Assembly: GCA_039908345.1 (NCBI GenBank)
Contig: JAMOBD010000036.1
Location: 1 to 32,170 of the forward strand
Source of the DNA: Magnetospirillum sp. WYHS-4
Lineage (GTDB): Bacteria > Pseudomonadota > Alphaproteobacteria > Rhodospirillales > GLO-3
Length of the DNA: 32,170 nucleotides
Reading direction: 5' to 3'
This document shows positions 16,870-18,539 of this stretch, one piece after another. Position numbers and translations under genes: made by a program. Position 1 is the first letter of the stretch. Each line of letters opens with the position of its first letter. Below the pieces are notes generated by a model, which had not been told where the DNA came from, did not search any database, and saw only the letters and a program-made list of their open reading frames with translations.

Positions 16870-16891
16870 TCGCCGCCCCCGCTTCCATGTG

Positions 16892-16930
16892 TCGATCCGA
16901 TATATTACCGACGGATATATATCGGATCGA
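16892..16930. promoter_or_regulatory. Perfect 14-bp inverted repeat, probable PadR operator
   Basis: The arms TCGATCCGATATAT (16892-16905) and ATATATCGGATCGA (16917-16930) are exact complements around an 11-base spacer. The centres of the arms lie about two and a half helical turns apart. The right arm covers the predicted -10 element of the regulator operon, an arrangement expected for steric repression. It is the longest perfect dyad I noticed in the window. Confidence 0.75.
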
Positions 16931-16945
16931 TACATATAATGGCAA
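16916..16945 (-). promoter_or_regulatory. Putative promoter of the PadR-MFP-RND operon
   Basis: On the minus strand TTGCCA (16940-16945, five of six) and TATATA (16916-16921, four of six) are 18 bases apart. Transcription would start near 16909, inside the operator, about 40 bases before the PadR ATG. Confidence 0.5.
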
Positions 16946-16970: not shown

Positions 16971-18038
16971 TTATGCCGCAACCCGCCGCAGGGGCTGGGT
17001 AGCGCAACGGATGCCGCCGCCAAAGGCGGCCGGGGCGTCGAAGGGAACGGGGATGGCCCGAATCCCCCTTTCCTCCAGATCCACGGCCAGACGGTTCTGG
17101 CGCGCGTCCAGCAGCACCGTTACCGGATCGACGGCAAGAACGTTGGCCCCCATGTCCTTGCCTTCCGCCTCCCCCACCAAAACGATGTCCCACCCCCTCA
17201 GAAAGTCGGGAGGACCATCGGGCAGGAAGGTCGGGCAAGCAACCGCCAGACCGGGCCGGACCAGGGTCAGGGCCAAGTCGAGATGAAGCACGTCGGGCCG
17301 CAGGCGCACCGGATGGACCCGGAAGGCCGGCCCCAGGAAGCGTTGCAGCCACCGGGCTCCCGCCTCGTTGGACGCGAGGTCGGACAGCCCCACCAGAATA
17401 TCCGGTCCGGCCTGCAGGATGTCGCCACCTTCCAGGAAAGGGTTGTCCTCGTCCCCGTTGTGGGAAAGGGAAGGCGAAGCGGGCGGGACCGCCACCCAGT
17501 GGGCCTCCCCGTGGCGGAAAGCCTCGGAGACGGCGGGGCGGAGAGCGAAACGCTCCTTGCGACGGAATTGCCGTTTGAGACTGAGTTCGAGAACCGTGTC
17601 GCCGATCACCACCATGGGATCGCGCACGAACATCAGGCCGCCGCCGTTCTGATTGCCCTCGGCGAAATCGCCTTCTTCCTCGGTCAGGGGGCGGTTGCGA
17701 CGCACCGCCACCCCCAGATCGGCCAGCAGGCGCACCAAGCCATCCAGTTGCCCGACCAAGCGGGCCTCCAATTCAGGGGCCACATCCGACAAGCGCTTGT
17801 GCTGGTTGCGCCGGAAGAAGACTCGTTCGATCGGCGACAGGTAGGCGGTATAGGCCTCGGACCACGTGGGGACTTCGGAGTCCTCACCCCGCCCGACCAC
17901 CACCTGGGCCAGCCGGTCCCATTCGTTGGTCACCAAAGGCGCGAAAGCCAGCGCCCCGCCCGAAACCAGCATGGCCAGCGGCGACAGGGTGGCCAACCGC
18001 AGAAATTCCCGCCGTCCCGTCCTCGCCCCCCAGGCCAT
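16971..18038 (-). CDS. Tat-exported pentein-fold enzyme (amidinotransferase/deiminase family)
   Basis: The 355-aa product starts with a twin-arginine signal: TGRREFLRLA, a hydrophobic stretch LSPLAMLVSGGALAFA (to about residue 33), and then directly the enzyme domain VTNEWDRLAQVVVGR. Catalytic features of the guanidine-modifying (pentein) superfamily are visible: FVRDPMVV (Asp140), LEGGD (Asp206), VLHLD (His252) and GGGIRCATQPLRR (nucleophile Cys345). Overall order resembles glycine amidinotransferase, but E-G-G-D is the deiminase type, so hydrolysis or transfer on arginine-like guanidines are both possible. Periplasmic location is inferred from the signal. It starts 3 bases after the CBS gene stop and is the last gene of the aroK-aroB operon; a weak stem CTGCG/CGCAG (16953-16967) follows. 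Confidence 0.85.
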   Translation of the reverse strand: MAWGARTGRREFLRLATLSPLAMLVSGGALAFAPLVTNEWDRLAQVVVGRGEDSEVPTWSEAYTAYLSPIERVFFRRNQHKRLSDVAPELEARLVGQLDGLVRLLADLGVAVRRNRPLTEEEGDFAEGNQNGGGLMFVRDPMVVIGDTVLELSLKRQFRRKERFALRPAVSEAFRHGEAHWVAVPPASPSLSHNGDEDNPFLEGGDILQAGPDILVGLSDLASNEAGARWLQRFLGPAFRVHPVRLRPDVLHLDLALTLVRPGLAVACPTFLPDGPPDFLRGWDIVLVGEAEGKDMGANVLAVDPVTVLLDARQNRLAVDLEERGIRAIPVPFDAPAAFGGGIRCATQPLRRVAA

Positions 18039-18041
18039 GGC

Positions 18042-18539
18042 TCAGGTGCCGTAGCGTTCGCCGAAGACGAAGGCCTCGGTCTCGTGGAGTTCGTCCTCCA
18101 GGGTATGCTCGACGGCGGCATGGAGGTCGCGCATGGAGACCATGCCGACCACGTGGCCGTCATCTTGCGTCACCGGGAGGTGACGGATCCCGCGGACGTG
18201 CATCAGTTCCAGGGCGTCGCGGGCCGTGTCGGCGGGCGCCAGGGTGTCGGGATTACGGGTCATGACCTTCGACAGCGGGGTTGCCCTGGCGTCCAGCCCG
18301 GCGGCCACCACCCGGCGGGTCATGTCCCGTTCGGTAACGATGCCCAGCAGCTTGCCATCCGCCCCCGTGACCAGAACGGCGGCGATGTTGTGTTCGAGCA
18401 TGCGCTGGGCCGCCTCGAAGGCGGTAGCGGATTCGGGCAGACTATGGATCACTTGCCCGTCGACGATATCGGGAACGATGCGCGAGTGCATGAGGGCCTC
18501 CACCAAGGATACCTTCGTGAGCATTTCGGATGCCGCCAT
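18042..18539 (-). CDS. Tandem CBS-domain protein
   Basis: The 165-aa cytoplasmic protein is essentially two CBS domains: the first around residues 34-83 (FEAAQRMLEHNIAAVLV, then GIVTERDMTRRV), the second around 92-146 (LELMHVRGIRHLPV, then GMVSMRDLH). CBS pairs bind adenosine nucleotides and usually sense energy status for a partner protein. The short acidic tail ends in FVFGERYGT. It follows the CorC/HlyC gene by 6 bases and precedes the pentein enzyme by 3, so the three are co-expressed; a regulatory link to either neighbour is inference. The ribosome binding site is weak, so a start at residue 6 (Met) is possible. Confidence 0.88.
   Translation of the reverse strand: MAASEMLTKVSLVEALMHSRIVPDIVDGQVIHSLPESATAFEAAQRMLEHNIAAVLVTGADGKLLGIVTERDMTRRVVAAGLDARATPLSKVMTRNPDTLAPADTARDALELMHVRGIRHLPVTQDDGHVVGMVSMRDLHAAVEHTLEDELHETEAFVFGERYGT

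Follow-up and report, generated by a model that had tools for sequence, protein, structure and literature searches.

Background

The closest described systems are the amidinotransferases human AGAT (1jdw), StrB1 (1bwd), HsvA (5wpi) and SxtG (6u1r). The pentein studied here is encoded at 16971..18038 on the minus strand of the window, by which we mean the whole 32,170-nucleotide stretch of DNA that was analyzed. It resembles these enzymes in fold over its whole length (Z 35.9-38.6) and has the same active-site order, RD...HxD...GGxxC. It differs from them in carrying a Glu within LEGGD where they carry an Asp within FDAAD or FDAAN, in its sequence (26-28% identity) and in its predicted Tat signal. 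Arginine deiminase and DDAH, known as cytoplasmic enzymes, share with it a match to Pfam family PF02274, and arginine deiminase also has the LEGGD Glu; their structural likeness is lower (Z 27-31), and the protein scores far under the curated cut-offs for these enzymes. The 2-nitroimidazole nitrohydrolase NnhA (9azg) has the pentein fold in common with it (Z 29.8, 15% identity), and the name of that enzyme indicates that penteins can act on non-guanidine substrates.

A Tat-exported guanidine-modifying enzyme, Agu2A', presumably belongs to PF04371, whereas the window pentein matches PF02274 only. Excerpts of PMC6085387 list Agu2A' of P. aeruginosa PA14, annotated as a peptidyl-arginine deiminase, as a Tat substrate identified by experiment, which means that export of a pentein is not in itself new. 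Excerpts of PMC4211729 link the agu2ABCA' operon to environmental agmatine. Among the matches listed, titles and abstract openings contained no description of exported AGAT-like penteins; subscription papers were outside the scope of this search.

The pentein gene and its locus

The ORF runs from 18038 to 16971 and consists of 355 codons and a stop; it was assigned to the AGAT-like fold and the LEGGD branch from the ORF list, PF02274, PDB matches and a structural model. The initial annotation had these coordinates exactly and left the strand, minus, unstated. Directly upstream lies the gene for a CBS-domain protein (18042..18539, minus strand, from sequence and Pfam), whose TGA stands one codon before the pentein ATG in the same frame (TGA GCC ATG). 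No Shine-Dalgarno-like site was found before this ATG or before the alternative starts tested. Because the CBS stop is one codon away and in frame, the pentein may be read by translational coupling to the CBS gene. Read-through of the CBS stop (18036-18044) would yield a CBS-pentein fusion.

The gene neighbors are CBS, CorC, PadR and RND efflux genes, and no catabolic partner gene lies beside the pentein. An inverted repeat with 24-nt arms (88% complementary, 1 nt spacing) is located at 16887-16935, directly upstream of the PadR-family regulator gene, which is followed by the RND efflux genes. It is likely the operator of that regulator gene.

Fold and active-site residues

The protein matches PF02274 with 38.4 bits (cut-off 22.8) and no other Pfam family at E up to 1, PF04371 (agmatine/peptidylarginine deiminase) included. 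Across the whole genome, PF02274 matches this gene only. The NCBIfam cut-offs for arginine deiminase and DDAH were missed by a wide margin (41.1 bits against 340 for NF045660, 37.5 against 414 for NF002381, 31.2 against 489.1 for arcA and 25.4 against 300 for NF045659). In a phmmer search of the PDB the best match was StrB1 (1bwd, E 2.3e-30), followed by HsvA, SxtG and human AGAT. An AlphaFold2 model built on an alignment of 49 sequences had a mean pLDDT of 89.4, and comparison with Foldseek and VIA-align 2 again placed amidinotransferases on top (HsvA 38.6, AGAT 37.7-37.8, SxtG 37.2, StrB1 35.9), above the arginine deiminases (Z 31.3-27.5), NnhA, and ArgZ/AgrE and DDAH (28.5-27.2). The PF02274 score over cut-off, the alpha/beta propeller fold and the Cys, His and guanidine-binding acids place the protein in the pentein superfamily.

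The predicted active-site residues were located by profile alignment to human AGAT, whose triad we take to be D254, H303 and C407. Asp140 (17619..17621) aligns to the guanidine-binding Asp170, Glu203 of LEGGD (17430..17432) to the triad acid Asp254, His252 (17283..17285) to His303, Asp254 (17277..17279) to Asp305 and Cys345 (17004..17006), the predicted nucleophile, to Cys407; all five codons are on the minus strand and all five residues are kept. The initial annotation had named Asp140, Asp206, His252 and Cys345 as catalytic. Three of these hold up; Asp206 falls on AGAT Asp257 and Glu203 on Asp254, so Asp206 is not the triad acid. Asp254, the second guanidine-site acid, had been missed. The Asp in FDAAD or FDAAN that marks AGAT-like enzymes is absent at the triad position, where Glu203 is found instead.

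The LEGGD branch

Residue counts were taken from 98 aligned rows, comprising the window protein, 91 LEGGD-type relatives and six AGAT-like rows. The triad position is Glu in all 92 LEGGD rows and Asp in 6/6 AGAT-like rows, as it is in the four solved amidinotransferases aligned (StrB1, HsvA, SxtG and AGAT); a solved arginine deiminase carries LEGGD with Glu. Some genes entered through two collections (L008/L093, L102/L125 and L005/L041, and in the tree L013 = L033), so the row counts slightly overstate the number of independent genes. The relatives set retained 80 of 156 relatives.

The GATM-like build combined with a deiminase-type EGGD, to which the initial annotation had drawn attention, is thus real and not peculiar to this protein, since 92/92 LEGGD rows share it: it marks a whole branch of AGAT-like penteins, split from the AGAT-like outgroup at 100/100 in the tree. 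Apparently this is a sizeable, uncharacterized branch of amidinotransferase-like enzymes. A PDB search with one relative (L030) returned no match.

Some relatives have lost active-site residues. The catalytic Cys is replaced by Ser in 7 of the 52 Reyranella-clade rows (L039, L074, L075, L077, L081, L088 and L006), and judged by their residues these penteins are perhaps non-enzymatic or altered in chemistry. The Asp140 equivalent is Gly in two rows (L074 and L110), and the Asp254 equivalent is replaced throughout the deacylase sub-clade (14/14 rows).

Gene neighborhoods of the relatives and the reaction type

In the Reyranella clade a distance rule puts the pentein gene just after ManC, a polysaccharide precursor gene, in 37 of 53 loci, a count that rises to 39 when L038 and L067, whose matches overlap, are added; six of the 14 remaining loci end at a contig edge. 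This setting is neutral, or hints at sugar modification or biosynthetic transfer.

In the deacylase sub-clade an ArgE/DapE-family deacylase follows the pentein in 9 of 12 distinct loci (10 of 13 rows, L102 and L145 being the same record), at a distance of 0.75 kb in L117 and otherwise no more than 130 nt. A pentein lacking the second guanidine-site Asp and then a deacylase form a conserved two-gene unit in L092, L093, L094, L098, L102, L105, L109, L116 and L117. In the L009/L031 sub-clade, nitrogen-catabolic genes were found within approximately 6 kb in five of six loci: a carbamoylase-type amidase in L031, L140 and L142, a creatininase in L143, and arginase-family and isochorismatase-fold genes in L144. 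Inspection by eye recognized no catabolic gene of such types in the sixth, L141. The carbamoylase query matched one (L082) of the other 83 loci searched, a background frequency for the carbamoylase neighbors alone. Judged from gene content, these settings would suit the breakdown of guanidino and ureido compounds. In Halodesulfovibrio, the gene directly upstream of the Tat-type pentein (L104 4763-5842) resembles choloylglycine hydrolase distantly (46 bits against a cut-off of 350), and its product has a signal-like N-terminus.

The carbamoylase, creatininase, arginase-family and ArgE/DapE neighbors of some cytoplasmic sub-clades favor hydrolysis, and we regard hydrolysis as the likelier reaction over amidino transfer. 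Counting against it, the nearest fold neighbors are amidinotransferases (Z 36-39) and not hydrolases (Z 27-31), and the window pentein has no catabolic gene beside it. An exported amidinotransferase, which would transfer the amidino group of arginine or of some other donor to a periplasmic amine acceptor such as a cell-surface or secreted amine, is the strongest competing explanation. HsvA, AGAT, SxtG and StrB1 are the best sequence, profile and fold matches, and ManC before the Reyranella-clade gene in 39/53 loci hints at sugar modification. Nevertheless, the triad acid is Glu, unlike that of the aligned amidinotransferases, some relatives lie near nitrogen-catabolic genes, and an arginine-like donor would be needed outside the cell; we consider this explanation unlikely, though a serious one.

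Probable export signal and translation start

The N-terminus carries T-G-R-R-E-F-L at residues 7-13, a hydrophobic core and A29-L30-A31. The predicted Tat signal peptide (residues 1-31, 17946..18038, minus strand) was assigned from the sequence, TIGR01409 and the filter described below, with cleavage presumed after ALA 29-31; its twin-arginine motif, RREFL, read from the sequence, occupies residues 9-13 (18000..18014, minus strand). The signal-like part covers the first 31-33 residues, and the enzyme domain begins at about residue 36. The twin-arginine sequence and hydrophobic stretch noted earlier ahead of the enzyme domain are therefore present, together with an ALA cleavage-like site, so that the twin-arginine motif, hydrophobic region and cleavage site of a Tat substrate are all found. 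In the AlphaFold2 model residues 1-19 and 21-27 have pLDDT <50 and lie outside the folded domain. TatC is encoded in the same genome.

Profile models gave scores near threshold. The NCBIfam Tat model TIGR01409 scored 14.5 bits (E 0.035) on the first 40 residues, just missing its cut-off of 16.7, and PF10399, the sole Tat-type Pfam match, was also under its cut-off (E 0.041). Of the 1,760 open 34-codon start sites that the window has on its two strands, the pentein start was the only one to match a home-made filter, written with the sequence already seen (RRx[FLMIV][LMIV], a 13-residue hydrophobic stretch and AxA). The filter matched 52 of 124,479 open composition-preserving base-shuffles and 3 of 560 ORFs in 80 genome-contig loci, one of the three being a family member. 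Taken by itself, the RR motif turned up in 1.1% of amino-acid shuffles. Our analyses indicate that a Tat signal is probable, given the motif layout and the uniqueness of the filter match with TIGR01409 below cut-off, and from its sequence the pentein is probably exported by Tat.

Alternatively, the enzyme could be cytoplasmic, with its real start at Leu35 or Val36 and the Tat-like stretch untranslated or non-functional. The proteins of highest identity, from the Reyranella clade, begin at the equivalent of Leu35/Val36, the upstream ATG has no ribosome-binding site, and TIGR01409 scores under its cut-off. However, the downstream starts equally lack a ribosome-binding site, and the 34 codons, open from one codon past the CBS stop, spell out a complete Tat-type signal such as only one of the window's 1,760 comparable sites has; a cytoplasmic location is rather improbable.

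Putative export signals across the relatives

The majority of the relatives begin at the enzyme domain without a signal, including the Reyranella clade, which has the highest identity (38-43%). Tat-like N-termini were found in L091 (Mariniblastus), L099 (planctomycete CA13), L100 (Thiotrichaceae) and L104 (Halodesulfovibrio). TIGR01409 was reported for all four, above cut-off in L100 alone and weakly in L091 (E 1.2). By eye, L085 is Tat-like, less clearly so and with no Tat model match, and Sec-like N-termini occur in L087, L089 (Desulfocarbo), L127, L148 and L149, and perhaps in L032 (Persicobacter). L127, L148 and L149 form a clade with a Sec-like N-terminus in 3/3.

The top-scoring relative is L089 (239 bits, 38% identity), which has a Sec-like N-terminus and is also nearest by tree path, narrowly (1.95 against 1.97 for the Reyranella-clade rows). 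A signal not conserved in orthologs had been named beforehand as grounds against export, and on this the evidence is divided: the Reyranella clade speaks against export by its lack of a signal, and L089 has a Sec-like N-terminus of its own.

The first tree excludes four truncated sequences (L066, L078, L096 and L097). The second tree had 47 rows, consisting of 42 hand-picked from the first together with the window protein, L125, L127, L148 and L149; the export label was also given to L085 and L032, neither of which any Tat model matched. A single exported clade was rejected, as the 47-row tree requires 8 changes of the export label (7-8 over the bootstrap trees). Starred branches force at least five of these changes, and one-change trees made up 0% of 200 bootstrap trees. 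With at least five label changes on the tree, export was gained or lost repeatedly; the label is still somewhat clustered, an equally low number of changes having come up in 11 of 500 shuffles. In the first tree the window row, which forms a long branch, joined the AGAT-like outgroup, and both trees drew a warning of long-branch joins, so the place of this row is unsure.

The expectation in the initial annotation that a periplasmic activity would be unusual is borne out as far as rarity goes, yet Agu2A' provides a precedent, as excerpted from PMC6085387, and Tat- or Sec-type signals recur in the branch.

Distribution and origin

Neither a search of 317 genomes of the order nor a single-sequence scan of genome contigs yielded a true ortholog of the window pentein. 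With the own genome counted, pentein matches occurred in 4 among 60 order relatives, 3 of 317 order genomes (E <= 1e-20), 23 of 385 genomes of the class (E <= 1e-10) and 5 of 398 of the phylum (E <= 1e-30). Around other members, the center genome included, the counts were 2/198 for the class of the L099 genome, 2/199 for the class of the L104 genome and 7/395 for the phylum of the L089 genome. L125 and L126, the two other matches within the order (34% identity), can be assigned to the deacylase type, the former by its placement with L102 in the tree and the latter by a deacylase adjoining it.

Of eight relatives having aroB, the region was examined in four (L136-L139), and all four have the order aroK-aroB-CorC-CBS, with an extra ORF before CBS in L136; no pentein was found in this stretch at E <= 1e-4. 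The shared gene order without a pentein, together with matches in only 3/317 order genomes, suggests that the pentein was gained locally, behind CBS, with loss elsewhere as the alternative. Plasmid and phage origins were set aside, the best matches among those listed having 35.2% and 33.5% identity, respectively. Two Enterococcus phage records that lack annotation contain a homolog (PQ520363.1 3104-4054 and OR846605.1 4316-5266; 33.5% identity), possibly host carry-over in assembly.

Proposed function

Computation established the fold, the catalytic residues, the Tat-type signal, the presence of TatC in this genome and the sporadic distribution. The reading we prefer, with a probability of roughly 0.5, is that of a patchily distributed hydrolase of guanidino compounds in the periplasm, in which export, hydrolysis, substrate and physiological role are what we infer. 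The folded pentein would cross the membrane via Tat and, once cleaved near residue 31, be released to the periplasm. Asp140 and Asp254 would hold a small guanidino compound while Cys345 attacks the guanidinium (or amidine-like) carbon to give a covalent adduct; His252 and Glu203 would act as its acid/base partners. The adduct is proposed by analogy with characterized penteins, for which excerpts of PMC6447857 describe a covalent Cys intermediate; S-alkylthiouronium appears in the titles of PDB entries for arginine deiminase. Water would then resolve the covalent intermediate to a ureido product and ammonia, or by a urea-type split, a course favored by Glu203 and the catabolic settings of relatives. 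Nitrogen scavenging or detoxification in the periplasm may be the role.

That the protein is instead a degenerate or repurposed pentein acting as a binding protein without catalysis is very improbable, since it retains all five residues predicted for the active site, even if relatives have lost theirs (Cys to Ser in 7/52, the Asp254 equivalent in 14/14) and RESC5, a trypanosome RNA-editing factor whose role is presumably non-enzymatic, has the same fold.

More broadly, and tentatively, the LEGGD branch could be an unrecognized family of enzymes hydrolyzing guanidino compounds, relocated to the periplasm on several independent occasions. This possibility, which falls somewhat short of even odds, takes in the routes as well: Tat here and in planctomycete, Halodesulfovibrio and Thiotrichaceae genomes, and Sec in other sulfate-reducer-type genomes. 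If true, it would mean periplasmic guanidine-nitrogen scavenging or detoxification, undescribed so far for the LEGGD branch. Two questions become testable, namely whether one Asp-to-Glu change accompanies hydrolysis instead of transfer, and for what reason a guanidine-processing enzyme repeatedly leaves the cytoplasm. For the breakdown of arginine, creatinine and guanidine, an extracytoplasmic step is suggested.
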